Below are positions 1,088 through 7,375 of a stretch of DNA of 27,362 nt, in pieces. The stretch spans positions 1 through 27,362 of the IMG/VR virus record IMGVR_UViG_3300032081_000786; one strand, given 5' to 3'. Every line of letters starts with the position of its first letter. Within the stretch, counting starts at the first letter, position 1. The position numbers were made by a program, and so were the translations under genes. The notes beneath the pieces are model-generated. The model did not search any database and was not told the DNA's origin. It was given only the letters and a program-made list of their open reading frames with translations. Origin of the DNA: a virus.

Positions 1088-1234
1088 TCAGGTCTCCAAA
1101 TCGAATTCAGCGCGGCGGGCCAGATCGGCGACGTGCTCACGGTCGATGCGATCGAGAAGCAGATCATCCAAGAGGCCATCAGGCTCAGGAAAAGGGCGGG
1201 GCGGGAACAGGAGGGCCAGCAGCTTGCGGATCAC
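1088..1234 (-). CDS. Short coupled hypothetical protein (48 aa)
   Basis: A GTG start at 1234 overlaps the stop of the upstream gene (GTGA), and the stop lies 1 nt before the ATG of the next gene. The 48-residue product starts (M)IRKLLALLFPPRPFPEPDG and ends in an acidic helix rich in Leu, Asp and Arg. Evidence is the perfect fit into the chain of overlapping starts and stops: without it there would be an unexplained 145-bp hole in a fully packed operon. No domain is recognised. Confidence 0.55.
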   Translation of the reverse strand: MIRKLLALLFPPRPFPEPDGLLDDLLLDRIDREHVADLARRAEFDLET

Positions 1235-1593
1235 AGCCCGGCCTCCCGCTCGGCGCGCTCATTGTCGTCACGGCTCTGTGCTGCTTGCTGGGCCGGGCTC
1301 ACGGTCTGGCACTTTTCACACCAGTGATCGCCGTCGTTGTCGGTCGCAGCATCTTCGAGCGGCACCGCGACATCGCATCCAGCGCATTGAACGTGAGCGT
1401 CTGTACAGCCATTGCAGCACGGGCCGAGATATCGGGTCTTCATCGCGTCGTTGTGGTGCCGGGGATAGCTGGACACGTCCATGTCGGAGCGGAACAAGGT
1501 GTCATCATTGCAGCAGGCGCATGTGCAGCAACCGTCGATTGGAGGCAGGTTGCGCGAGATCAGGGCAACGCTGATAATGCTGTGGGCGGTCAT
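1231..1593 (-). CDS. Cysteine-rich, probably zinc-binding early protein
   Basis: This encodes 120 residues. The ATG overlaps the stop of the upstream gene (ATGA at 1590-1593) and the stop overlaps the GTG of the downstream 48-codon gene. Several Cys pairs occur: a CCTCACC cluster near residues 22-28, CCNGC near 59-63, CAGC near 70-73 and CEKC near 92-95, consistent with one or two zinc-ribbon-like folds. A second possible start is Met51 (MKTRYLGPCC). The substrate is unknown; phage zinc-ribbon proteins of this size often bind nucleic acid or host proteins, but that is only a family-level expectation. Confidence 0.65.
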   Translation of the reverse strand: MTAHSIISVALISRNLPPIDGCCTCACCNDDTLFRSDMDVSSYPRHHNDAMKTRYLGPCCNGCTDAHVQCAGCDVAVPLEDAATDNDGDHWCEKCQTVSPAQQAAQSRDDNERAEREAGL

Positions 1594-1888: not shown

Positions 1889-1917
1889 GGTGTAGTACAT
1901 GAAATATGTACAGTCAA
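1889..1917 (-). promoter_or_regulatory. Leftward early promoter (pL-like) with operator as spacer
   Basis: Read on the minus strand: -35 TTGACT (1917-1912), then exactly 17 bp which are the perfect palindromic operator, then a weak -10 TACACC (1894-1889). The predicted transcription start is near 1882, about 29 nt before the first ATG at 1853. The -10 match is poor, so the promoter call rests mainly on the shared layout with the rightward promoter at 3878-3906. Confidence 0.6.
1895..1911. promoter_or_regulatory. Operator oL1, perfect palindrome
   Basis: GTACAT, GAAAT, ATGTAC: two perfect 6-bp half-sites with a 5-bp centre. It matches the half-sites of the operator at 3884-3900 exactly and lies between the -35 and -10 hexamers of the leftward promoter. 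It is the likely binding site of the repressor encoded at 3491-3823 and/or the Cro-like protein at 3913-4134. Confidence 0.75.
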
Positions 1918-1925
1918 CGATAAAA

Positions 1926-1942
1926 GTACATTTAATATGAAC
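1926..1942. promoter_or_regulatory. Operator oL2, imperfect copy
   Basis: GTACAT, TTAAT, ATGAAC: the same 17-bp architecture with one mismatch in the right half-site. Its centre is 31 bp from that of oL1, about three helical turns, so dimers on both sites would sit on the same face of the DNA. Confidence 0.65.
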
Positions 1943-2060: not shown

Positions 2061-2795
2061 TCAGGCGGCAGCAAGCTTATAGATTTCTATGTCGTCGTCC
2101 TCACCGATAACCCTAGCCACTTCTCGGATCATTTGAGCTTTGGGGTCGAGGTTCTTAGTGTCGGAGAAGACAGCGTGCAGGGCAACATCTGATCGACGGC
2201 CCAGATCAGAGAACATCAAAAACTTTGCCGATACCGAGCCTGAATGGTTTGCTACTGGTTCAAAAATCAGTTTTTTGTTGCTGTGAAGGTCCACCACGTT
2301 GTGAACCTCCCAGTCGGCCCGTTCGCCATGGATGGAAATTTCTCGATGCACATTTGCGTCTGGGAAGGCCAGCCTAACCCGGTCATAAATAAATTCTTTC
2401 CGTTTGCTCTCTCGGCGTCCAGCATCGCTCAGAATTGCCGCCGCAGCCGACTTGGCGGAGGCGTTCGCAACTGCGATCAATCCCGCAGCCAGCGATCCGA
2501 TTGGCAATTGGAGGGCGAGGACTGCATGGCCGTCAAACTTTAGGCCGTGCTTTCGTGCCTCTAAATCAGCAATTTTGCGATAGCCGGTATCTGGGCACAG
2601 CTGTTCAGCCTCCCAGAGCCCCATTCCCATATCGGAAATCAAAGCTTCGCGTTTGCCGATGGATATTTCCATGGTTGTCAGAGCGCCACTTGGGTACTGC
2701 ACCGGTAGCGACACAAGTTGCCGATCACCTTCAGCCCAAGTGAAGGTGATGCCTTGCAGTGCTTCATTGGCAATTTGCTCGATCCGGCGGGTCAC
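2061..2795 (-). CDS. Lysogeny-module protein, DUF1828/DUF1829-like
   Basis: This encodes 244 residues with a GTG start overlapping the stop of the upstream gene (GTGA at 2792-2795). The N-terminal third (about 25-70) has beta-strand-rich segments ending in ALISDMGMGLWEAEQL, which resembles DUF1828 proteins (a 'SD.G' strand-turn after a polar strand pair). The C-terminal part (about 135-230) has REISIHGERADWEVHNVVDL followed by KLIFEPV and FLMFSDLGRR, which resembles DUF1829. I recall these as paired domains of unknown function; the assignment is from memory of patterns. The base composition is clearly more AT-rich than the flanking genes. It is the last gene before the terminator at 2006-2028 and should be expressed with the repressor in the lysogen, as lambda rexB is. 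Confidence 0.75.
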   Translation of the reverse strand: MTRRIEQIANEALQGITFTWAEGDRQLVSLPVQYPSGALTTMEISIGKREALISDMGMGLWEAEQLCPDTGYRKIADLEARKHGLKFDGHAVLALQLPIGSLAAGLIAVANASAKSAAAAILSDAGRRESKRKEFIYDRVRLAFPDANVHREISIHGERADWEVHNVVDLHSNKKLIFEPVANHSGSVSAKFLMFSDLGRRSDVALHAVFSDTKNLDPKAQMIREVARVIGEDDDIEIYKLAAA

Positions 2796-3289
2796 AGAAG
2801 CATTCCTTGTTCCGGCGGGGCAGGTAAATCCGGCGGTCTTTTGATGTTGATCCTATCGCAGAAATAATCAAGTGAGGTTTGGTATTCTGACAAAATTATA
2901 GGCAGAGGTCTCGCGAACCTTGAGGGCTCTCTATCATCTATCCTGTCCCAAAATCCATGCTCGTGATTATCGCCAGGCTTGAACATTCTGCCGCTGTCTG
3001 GGTCGTTGGGCTTAAAAGGGTTGCTGTGTGGCCCGGTTGGATTCAGGTCAAGGGCGTATATTCGGTCTCGCTGCTTAAAGCCGGGCCTGCCAAGAAAGAG
3101 GCAGTAAGAAACCTTGTCACGTGAGCCCGAAGATATCCGTACGACCATTGTGAGCAGGTTTATCTTTGCGTGCTTCGCGTCAAAACCACAAGTGATTTTG
3201 CGGGCCCCGTCGCTTTCGCCCCAAATACTGAGCGCTATTGTCTTTTCCACGGTGAACAGCTCTTGGGCCAGCCGGTCATCGAAGGTCAC
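2792..3289 (-). CDS. Lysogeny-module partner protein, possibly DUF6978-like
   Basis: This encodes 165 residues with a GTG start (MTFDDRLAQELFTVEKTIAL) that overlaps the end of a 23-codon ORF. The middle contains an N-terminal beta-rich region with SYCLFLGRPGFKQRDRIYAL, then LDLNPTGPHSNPF and a His-containing block NHEHGFWDRIDDREPSRFA at about 108-126. The spacing of H-x-N-P and H-x-H resembles DUF6978-type proteins, but this is a tentative recollection. It is strictly coupled to the downstream gene, so the two products probably act together. No membrane segment is seen, so it is not a RexB-type channel. The function is unknown; a defence or superinfection-exclusion role is inferred from position. 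Confidence 0.7.
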   Translation of the reverse strand: MTFDDRLAQELFTVEKTIALSIWGESDGARKITCGFDAKHAKINLLTMVVRISSGSRDKVSYCLFLGRPGFKQRDRIYALDLNPTGPHSNPFKPNDPDSGRMFKPGDNHEHGFWDRIDDREPSRFARPLPIILSEYQTSLDYFCDRINIKRPPDLPAPPEQGMLL

Positions 3290-3357: not shown

Positions 3358-3479
3358 GATCCTGCACTCGGCGTCTTGACCCGACTCAACCAGTCCGACA
3401 GTGTGAACGGATCGTGAACATTGGAGGCAGGTATGCGGTCAGCAGTGATGTATTGGCTCGGAGTTAGGCTTCGTCGCAT
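3354..3479 (-). CDS. 41-aa small protein downstream of the repressor
   Basis: The ATG lies 12 nt after the repressor stop codon, with GAGG about 9-10 nt upstream that overlaps that stop. The product starts MRRSLTPSQYITADRIPASN and ends SDWLSRVKTPSAGS. It fills most of the gap between repressor and the two-gene module, and its stop overlaps a TTG start (TTGA). No family is recognised. Because of the good ribosome binding site I consider translation likely. Confidence 0.5.
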   Translation of the reverse strand: MRRSLTPSQYITADRIPASNVHDPFTLSDWLSRVKTPSAGS

Positions 3480-3490
3480 TGGGTTCGACC

Positions 3491-3823
3491 TCAATTACCT
3501 GATTGATCCGGTTCACTCTCTAAAGCTGCGAGCGCATCGAAAAGAAGATCCTGAACATCACCGGGGAGCTGGGCAAAATCGCCGTGGATCATGAAATTGA
3601 GGTCGATCCTGAACTCCCTGTGGAGATAGAGAAGAACGGAACGGTTGGGGAACGCCATGCCCTTCTCAGCATTACTGACAGCAGCCTTCTTTACGCCTCC
3701 AGCCTTTCCCAGCCCTTCTTGACTTAGGCCGCTTACGCGCCTGGCGGCGCGAAATCGAAATGCCGCAGCATCTTTATCGGCATCACCGGTCCGGGCCAAA
3801 CGTCTCTTTTCTTTATGATCCAT
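3491..3823 (-). CDS. Prophage repressor, XRE-type HTH (CI-like)
   Basis: This encodes 110 residues from the ATG at 3823. An upstream in-frame ATG (3889) lies inside the operator and is rejected. Residues about 20-75 form an HTH_3/XRE domain: FRFRAARRVSGLSQEGLGKA, then GVKKAAVSNAEKGMAFPNRS. The C-terminal 35 residues have no Ser/Lys peptidase domain of the LexA/S24 type, so RecA-stimulated self-cleavage is not expected. There is no ribosome binding site, but a promoter on the minus strand (3830-3858) places the predicted +1 on the A of the ATG, so the message may be leaderless, as for lambda cI from pRM. It should bind the four 17-bp operators flanking the module. Confidence 0.85.
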   Translation of the reverse strand: MDHKEKRRLARTGDADKDAAAFRFRAARRVSGLSQEGLGKAGGVKKAAVSNAEKGMAFPNRSVLLYLHREFRIDLNFMIHGDFAQLPGDVQDLLFDALAALESEPDQSGN

Positions 3824-3829
3824 GGGCGA

Positions 3830-3858
3830 ATTTTGCCTTACGGTACATGGAAAGTGAA
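3830..3858 (-). promoter_or_regulatory. Repressor maintenance promoter (pRM-like)
   Basis: Minus strand: -35 TTCACT (3858-3853), 17-bp spacer, -10 CAAAAT (3835-3830). The predicted +1 is position 3823, the A of the repressor ATG. The imperfect operator at 3843-3859 covers the -35 and most of the spacer, suggesting negative autoregulation or repression by the Cro-like protein. Confidence 0.5.
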
Positions 3859-3859
3859 C
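3843..3859. promoter_or_regulatory. Operator oR2, imperfect copy
   Basis: GTACAT, GGAAA, GTGAAC: left half-site perfect, right half-site with two changes. Its centre is 41 bp from that of oR1, about four helical turns. It overlaps the repressor promoter, as oR3 does in lambda. Confidence 0.55.
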
Positions 3860-3877
3860 GTTTCTATTTTCTAACTC

Positions 3878-3906
3878 TTGCAGGTACATGTAATATGTAC
3901 TATTGC
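3878..3906 (+). promoter_or_regulatory. Rightward early promoter (pR-like) with operator as spacer
   Basis: TTGCAG (3878-3883), then the 17-bp operator, then TATTGC (3901-3906). The predicted +1 is 3913, the A of the Cro-like ATG. Binding to the operator would cover the whole space between the two polymerase contact hexamers. Confidence 0.65.
3884..3900. promoter_or_regulatory. Operator oR1, perfect palindrome
   Basis: GTACAT, GTAAT, ATGTAC. Half-sites are identical to oL1 at 1895-1911; only two of the five central bases differ. It is the spacer of the rightward early promoter. Confidence 0.75.
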
Positions 3907-4229: not shown

Positions 4230-4635
4230 AGTTTACGAAGGCGCAGCGATCCGGTCGCTCTATCGCCAGCTGGTCGAGGACTTTGGCGGCTTTGATGCTG
4301 CCGCGGCGTTCTTGGGTCACTCCAAGGGCACGATTTCCAAGCAGTGCTCGGGCGATGCTGCAATCGGCTGTGACAGCTTTGGCCCGCTCGAGGATGCTGT
4401 GGGGCGCTGGCCGATCACGCGACTGATGTTTGATCGACTGAAGGGCACTGATGCCTCCGGTCAGGTGAATACCCAAGCGGATCAAGCCTTGCGAGAGGCG
4501 GCAGACCTTGCACCTGCGATATTTGCGCTTCTAGTCGACGGCGACCCAGAACCCTTGAGGAAGGAAGGGCCCGAAGCGATGGCGGCTTTGGCGGAGCTTA
4601 TGCGGTCAGTGAATTCGGGGGGTGGAGGTGAATAA
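4222..4635 (+). CDS. CII-like phage regulatory protein
   Basis: This encodes 137 residues. Residues about 10-70 resemble phage regulatory CII-type proteins: a helical YRQLVEDFGGFDAAAAFL, a turn and recognition-like helix GHSKGTISKQCSG, then PLEDAVGRWPITRLMFDRL. The C-terminal half is helical and acidic and ends in a Gly-rich tail overlapping the next gene. Position after the Cro-like gene matches lambda cII. Weak AGGG precedes the ATG, and the upstream 31-codon ORF ends within it, so it may be coupled. The DNA target is unknown. Confidence 0.6.
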   Translation: MRKVYEGAAIRSLYRQLVEDFGGFDAAAAFLGHSKGTISKQCSGDAAIGCDSFGPLEDAVGRWPITRLMFDRLKGTDASGQVNTQADQALREAADLAPAIFALLVDGDPEPLRKEGPEAMAALAELMRSVNSGGGGE

Positions 4636-5326
4636 GCCAGCCTCAGCGCATGGTTTGTCAAGGGCAATCCTAGGCAATCGAAAGCCCCCAACACTGCCAG
4701 GGAAATTCCATTTGCAACACAAGCCGCGTGATCCACGTGACCCCTTAGATTTCGACCCCACGCCCGCAAGCGCCACGCAGGCTATCCTGCGGGTCGAAGG
4801 TGACAGGATGCGGGAGATTGGCGGGCCTGTTTGGGAAAACGCCGTGGGTGCCGGCCATATTGCAAACGTCTTGCAGGACGACGGGTTCAGCGTGATCGGT
4901 TCCGATATTGTCGATCGAGGCTGGCCGGGAACGATTGTGCGCCCGTTCTACTCATGGGACGGCACCTATGAGAACATGGGGCGCGCGCCTGCAAAGATCA
5001 TTTTCACAAACCCGCCCTACGGAGAGATAACCACACGCGGGCACGGTCGCTGGCTGCGCCACACGTTCGATATGGGCGTTCGCTATGCTGCCATGCTTCT
5101 GTCTTGGGAATGGATTGCTGGCCGCATGAACGGGCTGGACGGGCTGCACTATGAGTTCCCTGTGTCGCGGGCCTATGTCTGTTGCTGGAAGATCGACTTT
5201 CGAGGGCAAGGACAGGCCCCTCAGCGGAACGGCTGGCTGGTCTGGGACCGCGACTGGCTGGGTGAAACCGTGCTGCGACGTCTGTTCAAAGACGACACGC
5301 CTAAAGGTCAGGGGAGGCTTCTATGA
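4622..5326 (+). CDS. DNA adenine/cytosine-N4 methyltransferase-like protein
   Basis: This encodes about 234 residues. A SAM-binding motif I-like stretch is WENAVGAGHIANVLQDDGFS (about 71-90) with the acidic end of strand 2 at GSDIVDRG, followed by the catalytic motif IV FTNPPYGE at about 128-135 (the [DNS]PP[YF] class that methylates exocyclic amino groups). The start is either GTG at 4622 or GTG at 4628; both overlap the end of the upstream gene. No cognate restriction gene is nearby, so it is an orphan methylase, perhaps protecting phage DNA or altering regulation. The target sequence cannot be told from here. Confidence 0.8.
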   Translation: MEVNKPASAHGLSRAILGNRKPPTLPGKFHLQHKPRDPRDPLDFDPTPASATQAILRVEGDRMREIGGPVWENAVGAGHIANVLQDDGFSVIGSDIVDRGWPGTIVRPFYSWDGTYENMGRAPAKIIFTNPPYGEITTRGHGRWLRHTFDMGVRYAAMLLSWEWIAGRMNGLDGLHYEFPVSRAYVCCWKIDFRGQGQAPQRNGWLVWDRDWLGETVLRRLFKDDTPKGQGRLL

Positions 5327-5565
5327 CCACCCGAGCTAACGACTTCATGGTTTGGCGAGCCGGCAATTCCGTTCACTGGGACTGCACCGTTGCCGAGATC
5401 GCCGATGAGACGGGGCTATCCGTGCCTAAGGTCCGATCAATCCTCAAACGCCGCGGCTGGGTTTGCCTCGCCGATAACCGCAACACCGACCCGTATGCCT
5501 ACCTGCATCTGGGCAACCAGCATGGGCAGAGCCGGGCCCTTCGCAACATGGGGGTGGATTTATGA
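5323..5565 (+). CDS. Small winged-HTH-like DNA-binding protein
   Basis: This encodes 80 residues. A helix-turn-helix is visible at about 20-46: DCTVAEIADETGLSVPKVRS followed by ILKRRGW. The start overlaps the methyltransferase stop (ATGA) and its stop overlaps the ParB-like gene (ATGA). It is probably a DNA-binding accessory protein of the early operon. Promoter targets or partners are unknown. Confidence 0.7.
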   Translation: MTTRANDFMVWRAGNSVHWDCTVAEIADETGLSVPKVRSILKRRGWVCLADNRNTDPYAYLHLGNQHGQSRALRNMGVDL

Positions 5566-6392
5566 CCTTTCGCACGATTGATGTCGCGGGATTTGATGCC
5601 TGTCAGGTCGCCGAGCAGCCCGCGCCGATGTTGCAGTGGGTGCCGATTGATAACCTGGTGATTGATGGCGCATATCAGCGCGACCTTGGACGGCAGAATC
5701 TCACCGCAATCCGCAAGATCGCATCTGACTTTCGCTGGTCACGCTTTGCGCCGGTTCTGCTGGCACCTGTCGACGGCGGCCGGTTTGCAATCATCGACGG
5801 GCAGCATCGGACCCATGCCGCAAAGATCTGCGGTATCAAGTCGGTGCCGGCGATGATCGTGCAGATCGACCCTGCAGAACAGGCCAGCGCGTTTGCGTTC
5901 GTCAATTCGGCGACCACCAAGATCACACCGCACCACATCTACAAAGCGGGCCTTGCTGCGAAAGAGGCGTGGGCTGTGAACATGAAAGAGGCCGTGGAGG
6001 CGGGCGGATGCGATCTACGCATGTCGAACGCCTCCACCGCGCAAAAGAAGCCGGGACAGATATACTGCATCGGTCTGATACGAGACATTGAAAAGCGTGG
6101 ATATCTCAGTGCGTTAACGACGGTTCTTAAAGGGCTGGTTGAATACGACACGACCGGTCGGGTGCCGCTCTACTCTGACTTCATCATCCGGCCAATGGTC
6201 TTCGCCTATGTTGAAAGCAGAGACTTCAAGCGGATCGATATCGCGGCCTTTCTTCGCGAAAACGACCCATTCAAGGTCATCAACTTTGTCGATCGGGCAA
6301 TGGCTGACGAGCAGCTGCAGGGGTCGCGGCAGGTCAACTACCGGAACGCGTTCACGGTGCATTTTCAACAGTTTCTGAAGGATCGGACATGA
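5562..6392 (+). CDS. ParB/Sulfiredoxin-fold (ParB-N-like) protein
   Basis: This encodes 276 residues. Residues about 28-110 match the ParB N-terminal nuclease/CTPase fold: strand VPIDNLVID, then YQRDLGR, then FAIIDGQHRTHAA at 76-87 with the DGQHR box, followed by a strand with VPAMIV. There is no obvious ParB helix-turn-helix or dimer domain, so it is not a plasmid-type partition protein; phages carry such DUF6551/ParB-N proteins with unknown roles. It is coupled to both neighbours by ATGA overlaps. It may act on DNA with the adjacent methyltransferase and HTH protein. Confidence 0.75.
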   Translation: MTFRTIDVAGFDACQVAEQPAPMLQWVPIDNLVIDGAYQRDLGRQNLTAIRKIASDFRWSRFAPVLLAPVDGGRFAIIDGQHRTHAAKICGIKSVPAMIVQIDPAEQASAFAFVNSATTKITPHHIYKAGLAAKEAWAVNMKEAVEAGGCDLRMSNASTAQKKPGQIYCIGLIRDIEKRGYLSALTTVLKGLVEYDTTGRVPLYSDFIIRPMVFAYVESRDFKRIDIAAFLRENDPFKVINFVDRAMADEQLQGSRQVNYRNAFTVHFQQFLKDRT

Positions 6393-6944: not shown

Positions 6945-7375
6945 CAGATCGCCCGAGCCTCGCCCGACTAGCCATGCCATCACCCATAAGCACCAACGCC
7001 CTTTACAGAAATGTACCGGGCGTCGGGCGCGTGGCCACGACAAAATACAACGGGTGGAAGCGGCTGGCGGCCCAGTACTTGTCGGTCCAGTCGCCACTTC
7101 CAAACTTTAAGACGCCCGTGACGGTGCTGATCTACGTCGGCGAGCAGGGTGTGGGCGGCATGGACGCTGACAACACGGAGAAGGCCTATTTGGACGCGCT
7201 CAAGCGGGCTGGCATCATTGTGGATGATAGCCGGAAGTGGGTGCGTGGTGTCGCTGCGCACTGGACGCCGAGCCTGTCTGGAGCCGTCGTGGTTATCGAG
7301 ACCGCAAGCGATCAGGTCAATCTGGAGCTGGCGATTTGCGGGCTTTCCGTGAACGCCAAGGAGCTGCTGACGTGA
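6941..7375 (+). CDS. rusA: RusA-family Holliday junction resolvase
   Basis: This encodes 144 residues with a GTG start overlapping the upstream stop. RusA is a homodimeric endonuclease that cuts four-way junctions made during recombination and replication. The catalytic aspartates are present: GMDADNTEKAYLDAL gives Asp75 and Asp77, and GIIVDDSRKW gives Asp96; the 2- and 19-residue spacings equal those of E. coli RusA Asp70, Asp72 and Asp91. It is shorter than many chromosomal nucleases but typical for RusA. Its stop overlaps the GTG of the replication protein. It would resolve branched DNA before packaging. Confidence 0.9.
   Translation: MTDRPSLARLAMPSPISTNALYRNVPGVGRVATTKYNGWKRLAAQYLSVQSPLPNFKTPVTVLIYVGEQGVGGMDADNTEKAYLDALKRAGIIVDDSRKWVRGVAAHWTPSLSGAVVVIETASDQVNLELAICGLSVNAKELLT

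Follow-up and report, generated by a model that had tools for sequence, protein, structure and literature searches.

What do the two coupled genes do that lie between the repressor gene and the leftward control region of this phage? In lambdoid prophages, this region is known for accessory genes such as rexAB (PMC7067206). The window (the whole stretch of DNA analysed, 27,362 bp) is an IMG/VR virus record and represents a fragment; the features of the locus are listed in Table 1. Read from the repressor on the minus strand, the order is gene 2, gene 1 and then the terminator, and the open reading frames with their translations place a GTGA overlap at the junction of gene 2 and gene 1. The open reading frames and the hairpin (2028–2011) thus confirm what the first-pass annotation had described, namely two GTGA-coupled genes on the repressor strand followed by a terminator. 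The 26-nt core of the terminator (2003–2028) was identical in a close relative, L002 (IMGVR_UViG_3300046171_000385; locus L008 was L002 again). The pair had also been called more AT-rich than the phage backbone, and this held: the GC contents of the two genes were 0.532 and 0.514 versus 0.591 (sd 0.021–0.025) for equal-length windows across the backbone.

Table 1. Features of the repressor–pair locus (window coordinates, except for the last line)
Feature	Position	Strand	Description
Left operators	1895–1942		Two copies of GTACAT..ATGTAC, starting at 1895 and 1926
Terminator after gene 1	2011–2028	−	Intrinsic; hairpin and T run
Gene 1	2061–2795	−	244 aa, GTG start; distal to gene 2
Gene 2	2792–3289	−	165 aa, GTG start; repressor-proximal
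Conserved non-coding block	3375–3421		45 of 47 nt identical in L002
LexA-type box GTTCACGATCCGTTC	3405–3419	−	Perfect GTTC-N7-GTTC, within the 28-nt run
Possible short ORF	3433–3594	+	53 residues; begins 12 nt beyond the box block; overlaps the repressor 3′ end in part, in antisense
Repressor	3491–3823	−	HTH only; ~110 aa from internal ATG
Right operators	3843–3900		Two copies of GTACAT..ATGTAC, starting at 3843 and 3884
DUF1828-only 138-aa protein of L011	4856–5272	−	

The operators, four copies in all, flank the locus on both sides. The repressor matched HTH_31/HTH_3 (Pfam) and PHROG repressor profiles; its internal ATG was taken as the start because the start at 3889 overlaps an operator. 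A Pfam scan found no Peptidase_S24 domain in the repressors of the window and L002. The pair has the strand of the repressor and sits between that gene and the leftward control region, as RexAB does, so the position proposed for it stands. It does not, however, abut the repressor: a gap of 201 bp containing a LexA-type block lies between them, and a search of this gap found no terminator. Two other genes of the window may be mentioned here. Left of the operators, a cysteine-rich 120-aa protein (CCTCACC, CxxC; 1231–1593, minus strand) had no family match and is 83–87% conserved among close relatives. The protein encoded at 4622–5326 (plus strand) matched phrog_799 (DNA methyltransferase, E 5e-34), and over ~290 bp its DNA shares 73% identity with Ruegeria phage 45A6, whose annotation for this stretch is adenylosuccinate synthetase.

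Neither protein of the pair reached the cut-off of any Pfam or NCBIfam family, and PADLOC returned no defence-family match for either. Three family labels had been suggested for them, and two survive as plausible remote relationships, through matches that were all below cut-off or only transitive. The N-terminal half of gene 1 aligned with a 138-aa protein of another phage, L011 (hhalign P 2e-5), which in turn matched DUF1828 (PF08861; E 0.001, 19.7 bits, below the 22-bit cut-off); Pfam gave no direct DUF1828 match to gene 1, and the link is therefore indirect through L011. The L011 protein and a gene 1 homologue in L003 (see below) also showed weak similarity to phrog_1960. Gene 1 would thus consist of an N-terminal half remotely like DUF1828 and a C-terminal half without a family. 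Gene 2 matched phrog_2017 weakly (E 0.012); the L002 copy of gene 2 matched DUF6978 (PF22398) with E 0.016 and 15.9 bits against a cut-off of 29.6, and the window copy gave no DUF6978 match in Pfam. At best, gene 2 appears to be a remote relative of DUF6978/phrog_2017. The third label, DUF1829 (PF08862), was not borne out, as its profile matched nothing in seven records at E up to 5. No gene annotated as DUF1828 or DUF6978 was present in the lysogeny regions of three staphylococcal phages, which had been considered as candidate sources of such genes. The nuclease-like fold suggested at first for one of the proteins found no support in any family match. AlphaFold models of both proteins built from two sequences had pLDDT values of 36–37, too low to judge either this fold or an RdgC-like one as in RexA, and neither profile matched a PDB chain, RexA included, at E up to 10. 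The maximum 19-residue hydropathy of gene 2 was 0.84, which predicts no membrane segment; gene 1 has one borderline hydrophobic segment (2.04; 1.45 in the L003 homologue).

The pair was nevertheless well conserved. L002 keeps both genes in the same order and with the same overlap, and the proteins are 91% (gene 1) and 68% (gene 2) identical to those of the window. Third codon positions were only ~50% identical. The dN/dS ratios were 0.03 and 0.07, with dS saturated, and on this comparison both genes are under purifying selection. The dN values of 0.22 and 0.05 show unequal rates, the 165-aa protein evolving faster than the 244-aa protein. The repressors of the same two phages are distant homologues (z 7.8, ~24% identity), and their operators differ (GTACAT..ATGTAC in the window versus TACGCA..TGCGTA in L002). 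Evidently, the repressor gene and the operators have been replaced between the two phages while the pair was kept.

A more distant copy is present in L003, a plasmid prophage of Pseudochrobactrum sp. XF203, just downstream of an S24-type repressor. There, tblastn against plasmids detected a full-length homologue of gene 1 (24% identity, E 9e-5), preceded and overlapped by a 180-aa gene that matched gene 2 with z ~4 (p 0.001–0.007 on shuffles), whereas seven other L003 genes scored ~0; hhalign by itself was not decisive for this match. The same plasmid search gave no match for gene 2, and tblastn of both genes against phages gave none at all. Scans of bacterial genome contigs yielded no confirmed relative of the pair, and when viral sequences were scanned with either gene, with the exact block or with a left neighbour gene, the same few phages came back. 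Judged from these alignments, the pair is a genuine conserved unit that recurs next to phage repressors; the suggestion that such a pairing might be seen elsewhere is borne out by L002 and the Pseudochrobactrum prophage. Since the pair survives a swap of repressor and operators and recurs beside the S24 repressor of an unrelated prophage, its job would appear to be independent of any one repressor.

The cII-like gene right of cro, used as a query, led to four further phages (L007, L009, L010 and L011) with other genes in the slot. L007, with a cII-like protein 98% identical to the window's, has an S24 repressor that overlaps a PemK/MazF-like gene (5584–5985, minus strand); no obvious antitoxin gene was found beside it. 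In L009, the slot next to the S24 repressor holds a 139-aa and a 157-aa gene (5086–5953, minus strand), and the product of the latter has a hydrophobic segment and matches phrog_35233 (E 5e-21). In L011, an S24 repressor is followed by three genes: one of 79 aa, one of 118 aa whose product has a hydrophobic segment, and the DUF1828-only gene. In L010, the repressor is HTH-only and the pair is absent. Peptidase_S24 was thus detected in the repressors of L003, L007, L009 and L011. The pair is absent from L007 and L009, close relatives that share the backbone, and is therefore not essential. By its gene content, the slot is a site of exchangeable accessory genes, as in lambda.

The gap between repressor and pair contained an element that the first-pass annotation had missed, as it had the repressor's missing S24 domain. 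The conserved non-coding block matches L002 in exact runs of 28 nt (3394–3421) and 17 nt (3375–3391); the longest perfect runs inside the two coding genes are 20–22 nt. It contains a GTTC-N7-GTTC sequence, the Caulobacter LexA box (PMC9578287, PMC12700426); this consensus is alphaproteobacterial. About 0.95 matches are expected per whole window and ~0.007 in the gap. Genome-wide box counts were at chance level, so the claim for the box rests on its position and conservation. A second match inside the repressor gene (3639–3653, minus strand) is probably due to chance. In L003, the 223-bp gap holds an exact box at 7288 (~0.005 expected) and a second with one mismatch 29 bp on (7317); in this region (6990–7331) the boxes precede the pair and diverge from a gene of 82 aa, which is itself convergent with the S24 repressor. 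LexA-type boxes adjoin the pair at all three pair loci and none of the four other slots, in a small comparison set that comprises two closely related pair phages and a distant third. The exact box was absent from the slots of L007, L009, L010 and L011, and those of L007, L009 and L011 had no box even when one mismatch was allowed. A putative LexA operator is thus found at the pair locus, as it is at the loci of LexA-controlled antirepressors.

No convincing leftward sigma-70 promoter was found in the block. In the window, CTTGACC, the −35-like element that is best conserved, faces right and stands 17 nt from CAGTGT just before the box; L003 has a similar CTTGACC-box order, directed toward the pair. 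Transcription through the block could go left, into the pair, or right, in which case it would enter the repressor gene at its 3′ end. Because L002 has other sequence to the right of the block but keeps the block together with the pair, we lean towards assigning it to the pair. For the short plus-strand ORF at 3433, the role of a LexA-controlled antirepressor was weighed. In L002, an ATG stands at the same spacing after the box but the peptide is not similar (p 0.3), which makes this role unlikely; the ORF is probably non-coding.

We tentatively favor, at somewhat less than even odds, the reading that the pair is a two-protein exclusion or defence module with SOS input, over that of an SOS-controlled lysis switch. 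The persistence of the pair through a repressor swap, together with the toxin-like and membrane proteins that occupy the slot elsewhere, argues for a pair that protects or excludes. It would be an accessory module, one of the exchangeable loads of the lambda rex slot. In the lysogen, transcription that starts at the repressor promoter probably runs on into the pair, and a LexA-regulated promoter inside the gap may contribute as well. Both proteins would most likely act jointly, possibly as a complex, in superinfection exclusion or abortive infection. The conserved 244-aa protein might serve as scaffold or sensor-regulator, and the 165-aa protein, which evolves faster, as the effector or specificity part. 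A two-gene RexAB-type system of a Pseudomonas putida prophage is a proven defence (PMC12894663). The pair shares with that system and with lambda RexA/RexB its make-up of two genes that end at a terminator, its strand, which is that of the repressor, its place between repressor and leftward operators, and its membership of a mosaic accessory slot. Unlike RexA/RexB, it has no sequence relation to any solved structure or to RexA, no multi-span membrane partner (the absence of a predicted membrane segment from gene 2 sets it apart from RexB), and a conserved LexA-type block separates it from the repressor. Several observations speak against defence: neither protein matches a defence family, the slot genes of L007, L009 and L011 belong to the repressor operon or its vicinity but the pair is 201 bp away, and a LexA-type block at every pair locus would suit induction better.

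The block and the S24-less repressor together make a role in the SOS switch a serious rival, one that we consider possible but rather doubtful. Here LexA would repress a promoter in the block, and after DNA damage the pair, or a short convergent transcript or ORF that runs into the repressor 3′ end, would inactivate or lower a repressor incapable of self-cleavage, inducing the prophage. LexA-controlled antirepressors are known from the Gifsy prophages (GfoA/GftA), 186 (Tum) and N15 (AntC) (PMC3121763), which likewise combine a LexA-type operator in the phage with a short repressor lacking a cleavage domain. This reading is favored by the box within 28 perfectly conserved non-coding nucleotides, by the two boxes between repressor and pair in L003, and by the distribution of cleavage domains: both close pair phages lack S24, and the S24 phages L007, L009 and L011 lack the box. 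The distribution is imperfect, however, as L003 has an S24 repressor yet carries pair and boxes, and L010 has an S24-less repressor yet carries neither. Moreover, retention of the pair beside repressors only ~24% alike and with different operators would be odd for a specific antirepressor, the genome-wide box counts are unremarkable, and the best promoter-like element points away from the pair in the window. Unlike the known antirepressors, the pair is a larger two-gene unit conserved across a repressor change, and neither protein matched a known antirepressor in Pfam, PHROG or NCBIfam; the Gifsy antirepressor locus, in addition, lies outside the immunity region. An ImmA-type metallopeptidase antirepressor was rejected: as with ImmR/ImmA, the pair genes lie just downstream of an HTH-only repressor, but neither translation contains HEXXH and Pfam gave no DUF955 or metallopeptidase match.

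Exclusion and switch roles are not mutually exclusive, since lambda RexA excludes T4rII and also biases the switch toward lysis (PMC11077077). The pair might be an undescribed SOS-gated two-protein cassette, independent of the repressor, that couples host DNA damage to exclusion of other phages as well as to the lysis–lysogeny switch in a phage whose repressor is non-cleavable; we regard this combined role as unlikely.

A toxin–antitoxin or addiction pair, with gene 2 as a growth inhibitor and gene 1 as its neutralizer and autoregulator, seems improbable. The genes are small, overlap and evolve at unequal rates, the PemK/MazF-like gene of L007 fills the same slot in a close relative, and the repeat-like elements of the conserved block could be an operator. 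A DUF3037-DUF1829 protein with a HipA-like kinase forms the validated defence system DS-6/HipAD (PMC13092281), which resembles the pair in being a two-gene unit and in having one member in the DUF1828/1829 neighborhood proposed at first. However, the pair has no kinase partner, DUF3037 or detectable DUF1829 in Pfam, and neither protein matched a toxin or antitoxin family in Pfam, PHROG, PADLOC or NCBIfam. Least probable of all is that the two are ordinary early phage or lysogeny genes whose role is housekeeping, apart from defence or switch. This would fit the strong purifying selection, which is like that on backbone genes, but not the dispensability of the pair or its location in a known accessory slot.

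Returning to the favored exclusion or defence module, if the pair protects the lysogen, it would represent an undescribed defence family in an easily surveyed slot. If instead its role is in induction, it would account for DNA-damage sensing by alphaproteobacterial phages whose repressors are non-cleavable. Through the conserved LexA-type block, both readings can be put to a direct test.
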